Below are positions 4,601-35,095 of a DNA stretch of 39,376 nucleotides, one piece after another (position 1 is the first letter of the stretch; each line of letters starts with the position of its first letter). Under the pieces are notes generated by a model. That model made no database searches, was not told the DNA's origin, and was given only the letters and a program-made list of their open reading frames with translations. The position numbers and the translations under genes were made by a program. This stretch comes from a virus: positions 1 through 39,376 of IMG/VR virus record IMGVR_UViG_3300014911_000015. One strand, 5' to 3'.

Positions 4601-7600
4601 CAGCCTGGTAGTCGCCCTCAGCCATGGCAGCTTCGATCTTCAGCCACGTCTCGCCAAGCTGCTTCGACTTCAGATATTCGACATCTCGCCGGAGAGCCTG
4701 CCGCATCGCGGTCACGCCCTCTTTCGAGATGATGTGTGGGAAATATCCCAGGATCGTATCCTCCATCGGCAGAGGGGCGCCGAAATCCTCAGCCGTGACC
4801 TTCAATTCGCCGAACCGCTTTGCGAACGCCCTGGATAGCTCCCCCGCAGGCCCGGGCAATTCGGTCGTCCTTACCAGACCATCGGGGTCAGCCAGCCAGC
4901 TACCGAAGCCTAACCGGTACAGTCGGTGCAAGCGGCGCATGTAGTCGATCCGCAACATCTCGGCCAGTTGCGTCCGCTTTTCCCGAAGCTGCTTCACCCG
5001 CCCCTCGTACTGTTTCACCACGCGCTTCCGGGTGGGCTTGTCCAACTTCCGGGCCTTCTTGGCCAACTTCTCGACGGCCTCAAGTTCCTCCTGGACCACG
5101 TCGTACTCGCTCAAACGGTCGAAAAACTCGTTTGCCTCCTCCAAACCCGCAACCTTGCCGACGTGGTGCTTGGTTGCCGACCAGGCCGTGGCTGGATCCA
5201 GACCGCCCTGAATCAGCCGATCGGCCGTCTGGACAGCGACCTTCTGAACTTCTTCGGGCTGCGCGGCCAGCCACATCTGCCACATCGCCGCCCGGGTCTT
5301 GGTCGTCAGGAAGGGCTCGCCGAATACCTTTTCCATCGCTGTCAGTGTGTCGGCATGGAGGCCTTTGAACAATTCAAGCGCCTCCGGATTGGCCCGCAGA
5401 TATGCCGGCAGGTGGGCCTTCGCCGCCGGCCAAGCCGATACCAAGTGCTGGATCGCCAGAGTGTCGTCGCCCTCGCGCCAGATATCGAAGATCGTATCGA
5501 GAACCGCAGTCGGCATGTCCTTGGCCAGCACGGTGAATTCAGGGCCGATCTGCTCTTGATCGATAAGATTTATCAGTGTTTGTTTCGCACCGTTTTTCCG
5601 CCAATGGACGTAATAAAGCGGACCTCGGTGCGGATCATGGATTATCCCGTGACGCAGTTCGGGAGGAACGGCGTCCGGATGGCTGACGGCATTAAGGTCG
5701 ATGACATATTCTTGCTCCATTTCCCGCAGCAATGCTTCAAGGCGATCAGCAGGCATTCCGAGCTCCTGCTGTAGCAACGGGATGGGCACCAAGGGGATTT
5801 GCCTCTCTGCCTGCAGGCGTTCATAGGCAGCCTTGACCGCCTTGTAGTCTTCTATCTTTCGGCCGGATGCCGGCTTTGTGGCGGATGTCGGGACAGCTTG
5901 CCCTTGATTGATGAGATCCATCAACGCTTGATCTGCGCCCCTTTTTCGCCAGTGGACATAATAGAGGGGTCCCCGATGAGGATCTTGAATTACGCCGTGA
6001 CGCAGTTCGGGTGGCACGATATCGACGTGGCTGACAGGCTGCAAGTCGATGACGTAATCCGCCTCCATTTGGCGCAGCAACGCCTCGAACTGGTCGGCAG
6101 GCACCTTGTCGCCCAGCGCTCGTTGAAGAAGCGGGATGGGGACCAGCGTATTTTGTCGCCCCTGCCGCAACTGCTCGTAAGCCTCCTTGACTTCTCTGTA
6201 CTCCTGCGCCTTCTGTGCCGTCTGAGCGAGCGCTTGAAGCTTGCTCAGTTTTGCCGCGCCAGCTTCTACGGCGGCCCTACGACCAGCCTCAAGTACTTCG
6301 GGCGAGGTGTCGGTCTTAGTGGTGGCGAGGATCCTGGTGTGCAGGTCGTCGCTCAAAGGCGGTTCCTCGATCTCGAACGGGTCCGCCTCGGCCGATTTGA
6401 CGATTTCCTCGGCCTGCTTGGCGATCTGTTCCGCTACGCCCTGCTGGTCGCGCAGCCGATATTCGCCCCGGACCTTCTTGACTTCACGCCCGCCGGCGGC
6501 CATTGCGGCCTCAGCGCGCTTGATTTGTTCGAGATGCTTCTGAACAGTGTCGAGGTCGGCCTCGGTCTCGCGGACCTTCCCGGCAATCTCCTTGGCGAAC
6601 TCCCGGATCTCGACGAACTTGCGAAACTGCTCTTGCTCGGCTGGCGAGCCGTTCTTCAGCGCCGTCAGGGTCGCCTCCATTTCGACGAGGCTTTCGCTCA
6701 GGTCGCCGGTCAAATAGTCCGTGAGATCGGCTGCGTAGCGAGCCAGCGCGCCCTGGGGATCAGCCTCGATAATGCCGGCGATCTGCGCTGCCCTCTCGGC
6801 GGCCTTCTCAAGATCCGGCATCGTCTCGAACGGCTTTCGAAGCTCGATATGGTCTCTGACGACATCGAGGACCCTGGCCGGGTTCTCGTAGTTATCCACA
6901 ATCGCATCCAGCAAAGGCTCGACGTCCTGCATCCACTGGTTCGTGCGAAGCTCCAGAACCAGGCGAAGGTGCTCGGGGTACTGATCGACCAGATGGTAAG
7001 CCTCTTCCCAAGCCTTGCGCATCAGTTTTGCCCGTTCCGGGGCGAACTCGATGACGTGGTGCAGGAGGCGGGCTAATCCACCCAAGTATTCTTGTGGCGT
7101 TAACCCTACACCGGGAAGGTAGTACTGCGGCATCAAAGCTCTAGGTCCAGTCTTTACGAGCGCTGTCAATGCGGCATCAACCTCGGGGACCTCCCAGACA
7201 CCCGCTTCGTTGAGGGTGGCACCACGTTCTACCCGATCCAACCATTCGGTCAATTCATCAACTGGAATCTCGATATTCTTGATTGGTGGACGGGCGCCAA
7301 GATGCCGCTCGAAGGCCGCGCGGAACGAGTTCCAGCGTTCCTTGAGGCCTGCGCGGCTCCATCGAGTGACCGCTCTATGAACACCGCCGGCGAAACGGGT
7401 GTAGATACCGCCTGTGCGCTCGAACTCGACCACATCCTTACCGGCAGCCTTGGCCGCTTCGGCCGCCCGTCGCAGAAACGCGATTCCCTGCTTGCCGGTG
7501 GCCTTGACGAAGCGGGCGGCATGTGCCGTGCCTTTGGCTAAGGCACGAATCGGCGCTTGGGGCGCCAACTTCACAGCCAGCACCGCGCCGAGGACTTCAC

Positions 7601-23482: not shown

Positions 23483-23639
23483 CACCGCTCCCTTTCCGCC
23501 GGCGCCTCGCCTTCGACGCCATGATCGCCCTGTGCTGCGCCAACGCCCCCGCCCTCGTCCCGTGCCGGCCGAGCACCTTGCCCTTGTCGGGCCCGTGACA
23601 GTGCACCACCACCCAATACCGCCCCTGCCGCACGATCAT
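23463..23639 (-). CDS. 58-residue basic protein between the terminase genes
   Basis: A short ORF of 58 codons. ATG 23639 shares ATGA with the stop of the small-terminase-like gene and is preceded by GAGGACGA; its stop (TAA 23465-23463) lies inside the large terminase gene. The translation starts MIVRQGRYWVVVHCHGPDKG and continues to a KARRRRKGSGGGRR tail, a short beta-hairpin followed by a strongly basic end. Coupled overlaps on both sides and sensible composition argue that it is real. It could be a small DNA- or RNA-binding protein. Function unknown. Confidence 0.65.
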   Translation of the reverse strand: MIVRQGRYWVVVHCHGPDKGKVLGRHGTRAGALAQHRAIMASKARRRRKGSGGGRRQR

Positions 23640-24160
23640 TCGTCCTCGTCCCCCTCTTCATCATCGCCGAACCGACCACTCTCACGCGCCAGCTTCTCCG
23701 CGACCTTCGCCGTCGACTTCAGCCGGTCCAGCGTCGCCGACAACTCCGACGCGTCCAACTGCGGCACCGGAACCGGCACCTCCGTCTTCTCCCCCTCCTG
23801 CATCACGACCTTCGTCGCCCGGATCTGCGGCGTCATCACGCTCAACAGCGTGTTCAGTTCCTTGAACGCCCTCAATCGCGTGCGGTTGTCCGGCCTCAAC
23901 CCCCCGTACTTCGACGGGTATTCCGCGTTCAGCAGCCCCACCAGCGTATCCACCAGCTTCTCTGGCGGCAGCTTCTTCTCTATCTGCTCCAGCACGCGAA
24001 GCTTGTAATCCTCGAGCCGGTTCGCCAGCGCCAGACTGCCGGTAGTATTCACCTGTTCCACCCGCGCGCTCGCCAGCGCCACGTCCCTCGTCCCCACGGC
24101 CGGGTTCTGCGGCGCCAGTCGCCCCCTCACGTCGTCGCCCGTGACACACCTCAACGGCAA
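23636..24160 (-). CDS. terS: Probable small terminase subunit
   Basis: About 174 residues; the first start is TTG at 24160, with GGAGG close upstream; a second TTG at 24154 and a GTG at 24130 are alternatives. The protein is helical, with a central region (LEDYKLRVLEQIEKKLPPEK) and a PQIRATKVVMQEG-type segment, then a coiled-coil stretch and a strongly acidic C-terminus (FGDDEEGDEDE). First gene of the leftward operon and two genes before terL is the classic place for terS. I recognise no specific helix-turn-helix, so the call is mainly positional. Confidence 0.55.
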   Translation of the reverse strand: MPLRCVTGDDVRGRLAPQNPAVGTRDVALASARVEQVNTTGSLALANRLEDYKLRVLEQIEKKLPPEKLVDTLVGLLNAEYPSKYGGLRPDNRTRLRAFKELNTLLSVMTPQIRATKVVMQEGEKTEVPVPVPQLDASELSATLDRLKSTAKVAEKLARESGRFGDDEEGDEDE

Positions 24161-24273
24161 CCACCTCCAATTGAAACCTACGCCCTCGACGCCGGTCGCG
24201 TCAACTCGTGCCCCACTTCAAGGCATAGGCTACCCTTTGCACTGCAACACGCGTCGCCCGCGCGTGTAAATAG

Positions 24274-24308
24274 AAAAAGGCGACCTCCTGAACCCCAGAG
24301 AGGCCGCC
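24274..24308 (-). terminator. Intrinsic terminator in the leader of the virion operon
   Basis: Read leftward, a 9-bp stem (arms at 24308-24300 and 24287-24279, GGCGGCCTC against GAGGTCGCC with one G-T pair) closes a 12-nt loop and is followed at once by TTTTT. This is a textbook rho-independent terminator. It lies between the leftward promoter (24338-24366) and the first gene (24160), so most transcripts would stop after about 55-60 nt unless terminated less efficiently or antiterminated. That suggests late-gene control by antitermination or attenuation. Confidence 0.7.
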
Positions 24309-24337
24309 ACAGACACAGGAGCGTGAGCGACTCGGCC

Positions 24338-24366
24338 AGCCTACACCAAGCCCGCCCCCTTGTCAA
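24338..24366 (-). promoter_or_regulatory. Sigma-70-type promoter for the leftward virion operon
   Basis: On the minus strand a perfect TTGACA (24366-24361) is followed 17 nt later by TAGGCT (24343-24338), which matches TATAAT at only three positions. Expected start of transcription is near 24331. The -35 is perfect and the spacing ideal in an otherwise GC-rich region, so I consider it real although the -10 is weak. It would drive the terS-to-fibre operon through the terminator at 24274-24308. Confidence 0.5.
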
Positions 24367-24389
24367 CGACGCCGCCCGTGCGCTATCCT
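24360..24389 (+). promoter_or_regulatory. Possible rightward sigma-70 promoter, back to back with the leftward one
   Basis: TTGTCA (24360-24365; 5 of 6 matches) is followed after 18 nt by TATCCT (24384-24389; 4 of 6). Its -35 overlaps the leftward -35, because TTGTCAA read in reverse is TTGACAA. If active it would transcribe the structured non-coding region toward the early genes. The evidence is only the match and spacing. Confidence 0.3.
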
Positions 24390-24684
24390 TTAAGCAAGGG
24401 CTGGCGGGCAAAACTCACCGTTCCCCCAGGTAGAAGCCCCGAGCGGCCGATCATGCTCCTCTCCGGCCGCTTCGAGGCGCCTCCTTCCGTCAGTGAGCCG
24501 CCCACCGGCCCAAGACCCCCGGTCAGGCAGTCCGTCCAGCCAACCAGCCAGGCCGGGGGTCGATCTTCGTTTCGGGGCGCAAGCGCACGGAGTGGCCTCA
24601 GCGAGGCGTGGCGCAGGATTTCGAGACGGGCCAGGACGAGGCGAAAATCGGGCGATGGTGGGAGAAATTTGCGAGGGGGGTCTT

Positions 24685-24743
24685 GCGCCTACAGGTATGG
24701 AACGCCAGGGAACCCACGGCCCTGGCGTCCATACCCTGGGCGC
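24685..24743. repeat. 59-nt long hairpin
   Basis: The arms 24694-24710 and 24720-24735 pair over 16 bp with one bulged A around a 9-nt loop; flanking CAG/CTG and GCGCC/GGCGC extend it to about 23 pairs. No T-run follows on either strand, so it is not a simple terminator. It lies in non-coding sequence. Confidence 0.75.
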
Positions 24744-24907
24744 GTTGCGTAGGAGATCGCCCCCCATCCCACGACTCTGCTCACCGATACCACCGACTCC
24801 AGTGCCTCGCCACGCCCGACTCGCTGCCTCGCGTGAATGCGCCTCTTTGCCGCTCCTAGACTGCGGTCGCGCCCGCCTAAGCCCGCCTTTGCGCGGGTTC
24901 ACTCTAG

Positions 24908-24971
24908 GCGATTTACAAGGGGCTCCTAAGAGAGTACTACGTACTCTCTATAGAGCCCCGTAGTAAATCGC
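24908..24971. repeat. 64-nt near-palindrome
   Basis: Three nested perfect arms: GCGATTTAC/GTAAATCGC (24908-24916 with 24963-24971), GGGGCTC/GAGCCCC (24919-24925 with 24953-24959) and AGAGAGTAC/GTACTCTCT (24929-24937 with 24941-24949), with internal loops of 2-3 nt and a TAC tip. It could fold as RNA or extrude as a cruciform. Confidence 0.85.
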
Positions 24972-25069
24972 GCAGATTTCCTCCCACTCGCACGCGCGCA
25001 TTTCGGGCCGGACTACGCTCCTGGAGCCGCTTACAGCGTTTGCCACGCGTGCGCTCGTGACCGGCGTTT

Positions 25070-25295
25070 CGGGACACGCTGTCCCATTTGTGCGATACGT
25101 GTGCCTCTGTGGCGCTCCTGGTGCCGCATGCGAGTGTTTTTCGGTTGCGTCCTGAGGCATGGCTCGCCCGACTCAAGCGCCACTCGCACCAGCCAGACTC
25201 ACTACCGCGACAGACTGTCGTGGCTCTCGGCCGCTGTGCACCGATCGGGTCACTCTGACCCAGCCAGAGTGCACCGGTCGGGACGCTGTGTCCCA
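25070..25295. promoter_or_regulatory. Array of short palindromes upstream of the sigma-54 promoter (possible enhancer sites)
   Basis: Three 17-bp dyads have the same outer frame CGGG...CCCA: CGGGACACGCTGTCCCA (25070-25086), CGGGTCACTCTGACCCA (25246-25262) and CGGGACGCTGTGTCCCA (25279-25295). A related 13-bp dyad, CGACAGACTGTCG, is at 25208-25220. The two right-hand dyads sit in direct repeats that start GTGCACCG. They lie about 105-330 bp upstream of the predicted sigma-54 start, where activator proteins of that system usually bind. They could equally be RNA hairpins; the compensating base changes fit both ideas. Confidence 0.5.
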
Positions 25296-25373
25296 CCAGC
25301 GACCACCAGGCAGGAGTGGCCGAACTCGCTGCGAGCGGCTCCTGGTGCGGCCTTGAGGCCTTTCGGCGCGACA

Positions 25374-25390
25374 TTGGCACGAGGCTTGCA
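25374..25390 (+). promoter_or_regulatory. Sigma-54 (RpoN) promoter
   Basis: TTGGCACGAGGCTTGCA matches the sigma-54 consensus YTGGCACGRNNNTTGCW at every defined base, with correct -24 GG / -12 GC spacing. Predicted start is near 25401, 54 nt before the ATG of the first rightward gene. The leader then holds a GGCCCC-agt-GGGGCC hairpin (25422-25436) and a strong ribosome site. Such promoters need an ATP-hydrolysing activator, probably host-encoded. Confidence 0.7.
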
Positions 25391-25454
25391 CTATGTTTCG
25401 GCGGCTGTACGGACACTCACTGGCCCCAGTGGGGCCCTGACGGGAGGAGAGACT

Positions 25455-26075
25455 ATGAGGGCGTTGACGAATCTCGGGAGACTTGCGCAGAAGTATCCGA
25501 CCATCTTCCCTATCCCAGGCGGCGTCATCAGGCAAGAACGGGAGCGGCGGTGGCTTCTTGACTGGGACGGTCATAGCTACACATTTGACGCCCGTCCTAC
25601 GCACGCTGTTATCGCAACAAGGAGCCGCAAAGTAGAACTGCTCGCAATCCGCCTCTACGACGATAAACTGCGAGACGAGACATGGACTGCTGTAGGCTGG
25701 CATCGGCGCCAGCCCGAGTATGTTGTCATCAATGCGTACGGTGCAGCCGGAAGAGCCCTCTACGGCCGCGTCAAAGACGAAGAGCGGTCCGAAGAAGAAG
25801 AAATAGATGCCAGAAAACTCATGGCCGAGACATACGAGCGCATCAACGCAGAGCGCAACTGCAGGAATCTCGTGCCGATCCCGCTTCTGAAACGGGCGCT
25901 TGCCTCCAGCTTGCCTCCCGGAGCGATAAATGACTTGTTGCGGGAGATGGAGTTGGACTACGTCATCGATCTCCAGCCGGTGAGTCATCCCGACGCGGTT
26001 CCGGCAGAGGACAGGCGGCTGGGAATATCGGATCCCTACAGGGGACTCCTGTATTACGTCTACTGGAGAGAGTGA
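25455..26075 (+). CDS. First early gene: protein with C-terminal winged-helix-like domain shared with the giant virion protein
   Basis: A 206-residue protein from ATG 25455 behind GGAGGAGAG; the frame extends further upstream, but that part crosses the sigma-54 promoter and is not coding. Residues 1-105 form an alpha/beta domain of unknown family (WLLDWDGHSYTFDARPTHAV, then WTAVGWHRRQPEYVVINAYG), followed by an acidic linker (KDEERSEEEEIDAR). Residues about 122-206 are the same domain as residues 801-902 and 918-1020 of the giant ejected protein; in my hand alignment 43 of 67 positions match the first copy from LVPIPLL to YYVxWR. The fold looks like a winged helix, so a DNA-binding or regulatory role is plausible. 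It is the likely first product of the sigma-54 promoter. Confidence 0.85.
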   Translation: MRALTNLGRLAQKYPTIFPIPGGVIRQERERRWLLDWDGHSYTFDARPTHAVIATRSRKVELLAIRLYDDKLRDETWTAVGWHRRQPEYVVINAYGAAGRALYGRVKDEERSEEEEIDARKLMAETYERINAERNCRNLVPIPLLKRALASSLPPGAINDLLREMELDYVIDLQPVSHPDAVPAEDRRLGISDPYRGLLYYVYWRE

Positions 26076-26706: not shown

Positions 26707-26711
26707 TCTCC

Positions 26712-26787
26712 GCCCTCCCGGACGGGAGGGCACCCCGCCGTGCGGGCCACCTTGGCGTGGTGGCGGGGCTCCCCGGAGGTACCGGGG
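26712..26787 (+). ncRNA. Three-hairpin structured element, copy A
   Basis: Starts 5 nt after the stop of paralogue 1. Stem 1 GCCCTCCCG/CGGGAGGGC (26712-26720 with 26723-26731); a single A; stem 2 CCCCGCC/GGCGGGG (26733-26739 with 26762-26768) enclosing CCTTGGCGTGG; a CT linker; stem 3 CCCCGG/CCGGGG (26771-26776 with 26782-26787); then TCTAAGA. Copy B repeats the plan with different stem sequences. It may act as 3' end, processing or regulatory RNA. Confidence 0.65.
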
Positions 26788-26840
26788 TCTAAGAGCCCGC
26801 GGGTGGCCGCTCCCCATAGAGCGGCGGAGAGGAGCAAGCG

Positions 26841-27350: not shown

Positions 27351-27355
27351 CCCTC

Positions 27356-27428
27356 GCCCCCTCGTGGGGGCACCCGGGCGCGCCAGGCGCCTTGACGTGG
27401 CGCCCGGGCTCCGGCCCTAGCGGGCCGG
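27356..27428 (+). ncRNA. Three-hairpin structured element, copy B
   Basis: Starts 5 nt after the stop of paralogue 2. Stem 1 GCCCCC/GGGGGC with loop TCGT (27356-27371); single A; stem 2 CCCGGGCGC/GCGCCCGGG (27373-27381 with 27400-27408) enclosing CCTTGACGTGG; CT linker; stem 3 CCGGCCC/GGGCCGG with loop TAGC (27411-27428); then TCCAAGA. Linkers and loop core are the same as in copy A while the stems differ but stay paired. Confidence 0.65.
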
Positions 27429-27594
27429 TCCAAGACCTGGCGACGAACGCCCCGCCTGCGCGGCGGGGAGCCGGCGGGCCGGCATAGGCCCGCGCGCCCG
27501 GCCCGTGCCGGGAGCCTGCCCCGAGAGGGGCGGCCCTCGGTACGGGCCGTTTTGTTTTGCCCGCCGAACGGCGGGCGGGAGAGAGGAGCGACGC
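27429..27594 (+). promoter_or_regulatory. Further hairpins before the zinc-ribbon gene
   Basis: The spacer continues with CCCCGCC/GGCGGGG, CCGGC/GCCGG-type and GCCCC/GGGGC stems and ends in a perfect GCCCGCC-gaac-GGCGGGC hairpin (27559-27576), 4 nt before the ribosome site GAGAGGAGC (27581-27589). No ORF is credible here. Confidence 0.55.
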
Positions 27595-27786
27595 ATGCGA
27601 GCCTACGACTACGACGCCGTGGTGTATGACGGGGCGGTGTACTGCCTCGACTGCCTGCCGGTCGAGGTGGAGCACCCGGATGTCAGGCCGATATTCGCCA
27701 CGGACGAGTGGGAATACCGCCCGTGCTGCGACCGGTGCGGGCGCGAGGTGGAGTGCGTCACCGTGATCGGAGAGGAGCAGTCATGA
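27595..27786 (+). CDS. Small zinc-ribbon protein
   Basis: A 63-residue protein from ATG 27595 behind GAGAGGAGC. It has two Cys knuckles, CLDC at about residues 18-21 and CCDRC about 25 residues later (YRPCCDRCGREVEC), fitting a zinc ribbon; the N-terminus (RAYDYDAVVYDGAVYC) is a short beta segment. Its stop overlaps the start of the next gene as ATGA, so the two are coupled. Likely a small phage regulatory or accessory protein. Confidence 0.75.
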   Translation: MRAYDYDAVVYDGAVYCLDCLPVEVEHPDVRPIFATDEWEYRPCCDRCGREVECVTVIGEEQS

Positions 27787-31425: not shown

Positions 31426-31454
31426 TTGACTATTCCGGCCGAATCTGCCACAAT
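31426..31454 (+). promoter_or_regulatory. Sigma-70 promoter for the recombination/replication genes
   Basis: TTGACT (31426-31431, 5 of 6) and CACAAT (31449-31454, 4 of 6) are separated by exactly 17 nt, and the segment is clearly AT-richer than its surroundings. Expected start of transcription is near 31461, about 30 nt before ATG 31492. It is placed right after the accessory genes and before zinc-ribbon, yqaJ and recT. Confidence 0.65.
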
Positions 31455-34150: not shown

Positions 34151-35095
34151 ATGTCGAAGAGTCGTGACTGGCGCTGGTTTCGCCTCTACACCGAATGGAT
34201 GGAAGACCCCAAGATCCAACAGCTTCCCGAACGCGATCAACGTAGGCACGTAATGTTGATGTGCATGGCGGCGAAGGGGTTGTTGCCAGCCGACGACAAA
34301 ACGATCGCGTTTTGCCTGAGAATCACGCCAAAAAGTTGGCAAACGACGGCGAAACGATTGCGATCGGCCGGCCTTTTAACCGAAAACAACTCGTTGCCGA
34401 CGTGGGAATCGCGACAATTTTCGAGCGACCACTCTGGCGCAGATCGAATGCGGAAGCTGCGTTCGAGACTGAAGGGCGAAAAATGCGCCGTCACTGTGAC
34501 GTCACAAAATTGTCACCGTGACGTCACAGTGACGGCGCAGAAACAGAATCAGATACAGAGACAGAATCAGAAACAGAATCATGTACATAGTTCCAATGAC
34601 AGTATGTTACAGAGCAGACAAGTACAGAGTAATACTATATCTTGTCGACTTTCGCCGACCTCACGGTCGGCAGGCCCAAGTCTCGACGACGCGCGTCAAG
34701 TGATAGACGCGTGGAATCAAGTAGCCAAAACGCACGGCTACAAGCAATCGCGTGGCTTGAAGGGGGCTCTCCGGAAGGTACAAGCCCGCCTGCGAGATCC
34801 GGATTTCCGCGACCACTGGCAGGAGGCCACAACTCGCCTCCTGGAGAAAGGACCTCACCCCCACCTTGCAGGCAACAACGACCGGAATTGGATCGCCGAC
34901 CTCGAGTGGTTTCTGACTCACAAGGCCCTCCGGAAGATTTTGGACGGCTCCTGGGACAAGCCGGCCGCCAAACGCCCGAAGAATCGTGGCACCCAGACCG
35001 GTCTGCCGACCGTCCAGGAGATCGAGGCGGATCTGGCCGAATGGGAGCGGCAGGAGAAACAGCGACGTCTATTCCGGACGAAAGGGGACGAATAG
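34151..35095 (+). CDS. Replication initiator (O/DnaD-like) with an origin in its middle
   Basis: A 314-residue protein from ATG 34151 behind AGGAGG. Residues 1-90 look like the winged-helix start of phage replication initiators (WRWFRLYTEWMEDPKIQQLP, then LPADDKTIAFCLRI and TTAKRLRSAGLL). Residues about 112-165 are low-complexity Gln/Asn/Val/Thr because the DNA there is a repeat cluster. The C-terminal part (DDARQVIDAWNQVAKTHGYK, then WIADLEWFLTHKALRKILDG) resembles the helical ends of initiators such as lambda O and DnaD-type proteins, which load the helicase. The helicase gene follows directly, a classic initiator-helicase pair. The call is based on layout and partner gene. Confidence 0.75.
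   Translation: MSKSRDWRWFRLYTEWMEDPKIQQLPERDQRRHVMLMCMAAKGLLPADDKTIAFCLRITPKSWQTTAKRLRSAGLLTENNSLPTWESRQFSSDHSGADRMRKLRSRLKGEKCAVTVTSQNCHRDVTVTAQKQNQIQRQNQKQNHVHSSNDSMLQSRQVQSNTISCRLSPTSRSAGPSLDDARQVIDAWNQVAKTHGYKQSRGLKGALRKVQARLRDPDFRDHWQEATTRLLEKGPHPHLAGNNDRNWIADLEWFLTHKALRKILDGSWDKPAAKRPKNRGTQTGLPTVQEIEADLAEWERQEKQRRLFRTKGDE
34485..34642 (+). other. Candidate origin of replication inside the initiator gene
   Basis: Two perfect inverted 21-bp arms (34485-34505 and 34518-34538) flank a 12-nt spacer; in total seven GTCAC/GTGAC pentamers occur within about 55 bp. From 34539 the sequence turns AT-rich for about 100 bp and has three copies of ACAGAATCA (34543, 34561, 34573) before TAATACTATAT. 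Iterons followed by an AT-rich region, inside the initiator gene and next to the helicase gene, is the arrangement of the lambda origin within gene O. Confidence 0.7.

Follow-up and report, generated by a model that had tools for sequence, protein, structure and literature searches.

Large, elaborately folded RNAs are encoded by some phages, for example GOLLD and ROOL (PMC12286853). Both form cages whose purpose is unexplained, that of ROOL being a homo-oligomeric nanocage, and few kinds of such RNAs are known. Phage ICP1, which lacks tRNAs, has a gap of about 1 kb without ORFs and an abundant RNA of about 800 nt (PMC7567579). In phage K the long intergenic RNAs lnc001 and lnc002 are approximately 0.6–1.2 kb in size (PMC9241854). 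Furthermore, putRNA of HK022 is a folded RNA in the early phage transcript that acts on polymerase (PMC9378689).

Here we analyzed a region of similar kind (positions 24390–25373) in the virus record IMGVR_UViG_3300014911_000015. The full record of 39,376 bases, in the following called the window, is of the linear type in IMG/VR terms, i.e. without end repeats. As in large phage non-coding RNAs in general, a long stretch without ORFs (a gap of 1300 nt) and folding well beyond chance were found. By kind the region stands with the large phage RNAs, by family with none of them. It is in the size class of GOLLD and ROOL but matches neither covariance model, and GOLLD is usually located near tRNA genes, whereas a tRNA/tmRNA search of this 39 kb record, which may be incomplete, found none. 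With the ICP1 RNA it has in common the ORF-less gap of about 1 kb, a position not beside tRNA genes and the lack of a named RNA family. The ICP1 RNA differs in that it was shown by RNA-seq and that its ORF-less stretch is AT-rich. The RNAs of phage K are likewise long and intergenic, but they lie next to tRNA genes and were seen by RNA-seq. HK022 putRNA is a short cis element that offers a possible working mode for the region.

Genomic setting

The phage bearing the region is podovirus-like and uncharacterised. Its capsid protein shared at best about 30% identity with any match, and its nearest RecT proteins were those of Geobacillus phages (43% identity). The genes to the left of approximately 24.15 kb are read leftward and comprise the terminase large subunit, an M15-type endolysin, a P22-like portal, the major head protein and others. 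To the right of 25.45 kb the genes are read rightward and include YqaJ, RecT, an O-like/DnaD-like initiator and DnaB. The leftward operon with terminase, portal and capsid is the late one and the rightward genes are the early ones. Between them a gap of 1300 nt (24155–25454) is found, compared to 246 nt for the next-longest intergenic gap among the genes listed, and the analyzed region is the core of this gap. The cumulative GC skew turns at the same place. The first late gene takes the place of the terminase small subunit, judged by position only, and no function was assigned to the first early gene (206 aa).

The sequence-only reading of this DNA had found no credible protein gene in the region, and our analysis agrees. 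Codon log-odds were below zero for each of the nine gap ORFs examined (-0.10 to -0.33 per codon), and none of them had a match in Pfam or PHROGs. Among the accepted genes 23 of 24 scored positive (0.09 to 0.48), with the exception of the endolysin (-0.06). A protein gene within 24390–25373 is thus ruled out by codon scores and family searches.

Promoters and terminator at the left edge

Promoter-like sites were ranked by scoring the plus and the minus strand of the whole contig in a weighted sigma-70 search. In reading the result, ranks count for more than scores. At the left edge of the region two divergent sites, which the sequence-only reading had not described, overlap back to back (24338–24389) and have a common -35 stretch, TTGTCAA (Table 1). 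The leftward site is the sole exact TTGACA-N17-TANNNT of the contig. Transcription from the rightward site would start at about 24396, two bases ahead of the foot of domain D1.

Some 25–60 nt beyond the leftward promoter an intrinsic terminator is located, in which the GC-rich stem is directly followed by a T run (fold z -4.0 on the minus strand). A promoter and a strong terminator in front of the late genes suggest late control by antitermination. In lambda an antiterminator lets late transcription pass the terminator, and pR'-tR' has the same arrangement of a promoter and then a strong intrinsic terminator within some 60 nt before the late genes. However, a Q-like antiterminator was not identified in the contig, and the likeness concerns the left edge and not the structured region. 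At the right end of the region the terminator scan of the contig found no plus-strand terminator. A weak promoter-like site (25368–25397, rank 181) is present there, so the first early gene could have its own start.

Table 1. Features of the gap and its flanking genes (z values as plus/minus strand unless stated otherwise)
Feature	Position	Strand	Remarks
First late gene	23636..24154	-	codon log-odds +0.41 (23636–24160); no family match
Intrinsic terminator	24268..24308	-	9-bp GC-rich stem, inner hairpin, then TTTTTCTATTT; rank 2 among terminator-like sites of the contig
Promoter-like site toward late genes	24338..24366	-	TTGACA-17-TAGGCT; rank 3 in the contig
Promoter-like site into the region	24360..24389	+	TTGTCA-18-TATCCT; rank 2 among sigma-70-like sites of the contig
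D1, long hairpin	24398..24511	+	z -4.2/-5.2; P>0.9 helices on both strands
D2, hairpin with 11-bp stem	24514..24561	+	z -5.1/-4.7
D3, imperfect rod of 300 nt, tip 24711–24719	24575..24874	+	z -5.0/-5.1; chain of P>0.9 helices
D4, hairpin of 9 + 7 + 9 bp, small internal loops	24903..24977	+	z -9.7/-8.9
D5, branched, long-range closing helices	25003..25371	+	z -2.9/-1.5 (24981–25373)
18-nt hairpin TCGGGWCACNCTGWCCCA, three copies in D5	25069–25086, 25245–25262, 25278–25295	+	
Unstructured linker with ribosome-binding site GGGAGGAG (25442–25449)	25374..25454	+	z +1.0 (25374–25460)
First early gene	25455..26075	+	codon log-odds +0.19; no family match

Folding of the region

The folding z compares the RNA folding energy with that of dinucleotide-shuffled sequence, separately for each strand. 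For 24390–25373 the folding energy was -494 kcal/mol on the plus and -513 on the minus strand (z -7.9 and -7.2). For 24396–25373 the energies were -493.5 and -510.7 compared to shuffle means of -421.8 and -447.3 (z -8.0 and -6.9), and none of 100 shuffles folded as well. The region had been described before as heavily structured, with folding against shuffled sequence proposed as a check, and the excess turned out to be real on both strands. Nine coding controls of equal length from the same phage ranged from z +0.1 to -4.6. With the best hairpin (24900–24980) removed, z was still -5.2 on the plus and -5.0 on the minus strand, so the folding signal is spread along the region. In windows of 500 nt along the contig the region was among the strongest; 34391–34890 was stronger, and several windows in 26.4–29.9 kb reached -4 to -5. 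With windows of 120 nt D4 and the D3 tip alone showed a strong excess, hence much of the structure is long-range. The same test gave z -2.9/-2.2 for the ORF-less stretch of ICP1, the source of that phage's top transcript by abundance, which is non-coding; this is only slightly better than shuffles. Strong folding is therefore neither required for a functional RNA nor proof of one.

Five domains were set by confident helices (P>0.9 pairing) and domain folding. The largest element is the rod D3, not noticed in the sequence-only reading, in which many short helices lie in register. D4 corresponds to the 64-nt hairpin reported there. D5 is the weakest domain and weakly better than chance. Among its three 18-nt hairpins, an A-T pair of copy 1 is replaced by T-A in copy 2, which keeps the pairing; as the single paired change among the repeats it is suggestive and no more. 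The hairpin pattern was absent elsewhere in the contig (up to 3 mismatches), and as many copies occurred in 1 of 100 shuffles.

The helices named in the sequence-only reading, CCTAGA (24855) with TCTAGG (24903), CGCACGCG (24989) with CGCGTGCG (25046) and TGCGAGTG (25129) with CACTCGCA (25181), are all present. Only the last of them was confident, and this in the minus-strand fold alone, so the three are predicted to be alternatives as much as members of one fold.

The folding excess was almost the same on both strands, and single mismatches within helices showed no bias (G-T versus A-C, 4 versus 5); neither strand is thus marked. In D1 and D5 more confident helices were found on the minus than on the plus strand.

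Search for relatives and known RNA families

With the Rfam covariance models no match reached its gathering score. Five chance-level matches lay far below these scores, and neither GOLLD nor ROOL matched even at E values up to 10, in line with the earlier remark that the region is unlike both. DNA homologues of the region were not found in phages, plasmids and fetched loci, and models built from D1 and D4 matched this record only. No close kin of the phage was found in IMG/VR with the terminase, capsid, portal and first-gene proteins, nor in GTDB genomes with the capsid. Alignable relatives were at most 31% identical and their DNA was without similarity to the region, while relatives of RecT (35–47%) have only recombination genes in common with the phage. 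Very near records may be absent from the searched sets, so the lack of kin is no biological evidence.

Five distant relatives (L009, L091, L135, L140 and L142) contained windows with z below -6. In L091 these overlap several ORFs and apparent short genes with inverted repeats. A common structured block upstream of the terminase was looked for in the distant relatives and rejected, since none resembles the region. A type-P5 twister ribozyme was found on the minus strand of one distantly related phage contig (L140:3343–3402).

Possible roles of the region

The region is a real feature, and a new large phage RNA, or a leader, is a plausible reading of it. We tentatively favour, at a little short of an even chance, a long structured RNA or early-operon leader made from the rightward promoter, because position, promoter, folding and the open ribosome-binding site agree. 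In its favour, the region is non-coding, shows excess folding over its full length and well beyond the coding controls and the ICP1 stretch, follows a promoter of rank 2, is followed by an unstructured linker and carries repeat hairpins with a paired swap; the RNAs of ICP1 and phage K are precedents. Against it, the strands fold alike, the DNA and protein searches gave no homologue, the right end has no plus-strand terminator, other spacers are hairpin-dense and D5 is weak. The large structured RNA suggested by the sequence-only reading is thus supported, short of proof, by the excess folding, by long-range helices nested in one another and by one of the top promoters of the contig ahead of the first helix. 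We infer that the region is transcribed, with plus as the working strand, and that its fold is important at the RNA level.

In the proposed mechanism an RNA of about 1 kb would be read rightward from the promoter at 24360–24389, starting at about 24396, and would fold into two hairpin domains, the 300-nt rod, a 75-nt hairpin and the branched domain. It could go on to form the early-operon leader, or be cut or terminated as a separate RNA before the ribosome-binding site at 25442. The likeliest role would be that the nascent RNA controls early transcription, or that it is a free phage RNA, as the abundant RNAs of ICP1 and phage K may be; a leader might, again by analogy, act on polymerase as HK022 put RNA does. 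That the phage makes an ornate RNA of approximately 980 nt at the switch between early and late operons, forming a new class with no sequence relation to GOLLD, ROOL or OLE, we consider unlikely. A further large phage RNA, belonging to no described family and located where early and late control meet, not beside tRNA genes, would widen the set and could be compared with the known ones to learn how such RNAs work. If the region turns out to be a leader, folded RNA of a kilobase in front of the early genes would still be unusual as a means of control.

Alternatively, the gap may be an ordinary, hairpin-rich spacer which carries promoters and a terminator and has no function that needs the whole fold. 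Other spacers are hairpin-dense as well (26707–26840, z -2.1/-3.1; 27351–27596, z -5.6/-4.9) and 26.4–29.9 kb folds well even inside genes, so the GC-rich build of the genome may give part of the excess. The near-equal folding of both strands and the lack of any homologue in DNA and protein searches, from which very near records may be absent, fit such a spacer too. It is nevertheless an unlikely reading, if one to be reckoned with, given a length of 1.3 kb compared to at most 246 nt for other gaps, the nested long-range rod D3 and a folding signal that persists without D4. An RNA of the minus strand, which would start near 25.4 kb, run leftward through the region and end at the terminator 24308–24268, is highly doubtful. 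It would make use of the strong minus-strand terminator at the left end, the minus-strand fold nearly equals the plus-strand fold, and the more confident helices of D1 and D5 are on its side. However, no good minus-strand promoter lies near the right end: the sites of rank 3, 23 and 29 all belong to the left edge, and the best of the remaining ones in the gap has rank 58 (24929), while the adjacent leftward promoter accounts for the terminator equally well.

It is also distinctly unlikely that the hairpins and repeats act as DNA, for instance with D4 serving in replication or with terminase acting at the three 18-nt hairpins. The region adjoins the terminase genes, both strands fold alike and the cumulative GC skew turns here, but this turn is expected anyway from the change of gene direction, and long-range rods form in single strands only. 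The core of the D4 hairpin at 24919–24959, AGAGAGTAC-N3-GTACTCTCT, was found in seven IMG/VR stretches. Three of these are inside initiator genes (L174:10636–10656, L177:11006–11026 and L178:3442–3462), once identical over 20 nt including the loop (L177). According to PHROGs the L174 gene is O-like/DnaD-like and the L177 gene encodes a replication initiation protein. As L174 and L178 are near-identical relatives, the matches represent just two unrelated lineages, and they were spotted after the fact. Furthermore, the core is non-coding here and encodes ESTxYSL in the initiator genes, so the shared stretch may reflect the coded peptide. The other four matches lie outside recognised initiator genes and are mostly terminator-like, from AT-rich phages. 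The likeness is thus a lead to a possible DNA role, not evidence of one. D4 itself had only partial matches among annotated phages, in three Klebsiella giant-phage records, and none among plasmids, and a longer D4 pattern was not found in GTDB genomes.

A better candidate for the origin is located in the O-like/DnaD-like gene (34151–35095). At 34484–34590 it carries a perfect 22-nt inverted repeat, its arms 12 nt apart, and after it short repeats (CAGAAACAGAATCAGATACAGAG...), within the strongest folding window of the contig (34391–34890, z -8.5/-11.9), and is a candidate lambda-like replication origin. Origins of the O-gene type combine a hairpin and short repeats within the initiator gene, while D4 is intergenic and about 9 kb off. 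The replication site suggested by the sequence-only reading is weakened by this candidate at 34.5 kb, and the hairpin at 24919–24959 keeps the idea alive. A hairpin end of the protelomerase type was dropped, since the palindrome of D4 is interrupted and a non-exhaustive look at the genes with matches revealed no protelomerase. As to the packaging site, which the sequence-only reading also named, the contig continues without a break through the region, a slight argument against a fixed DNA end at this place.

Other features of the contig

The 246-nt spacer 27351–27596 (z -5.6) consists of several near-perfect GC-rich hairpins and contains the terminator-like site that ranks first in the contig (plus strand, 27550). 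The top sigma-70-like site, TTGACT-17-CACAAT (31426–31454), is located in the spacer ahead of the YqaJ/RecT genes. Within the leftward gene of 2303 aa a direct repeat of 205 nt with 72% identity was found at 5551–6103.
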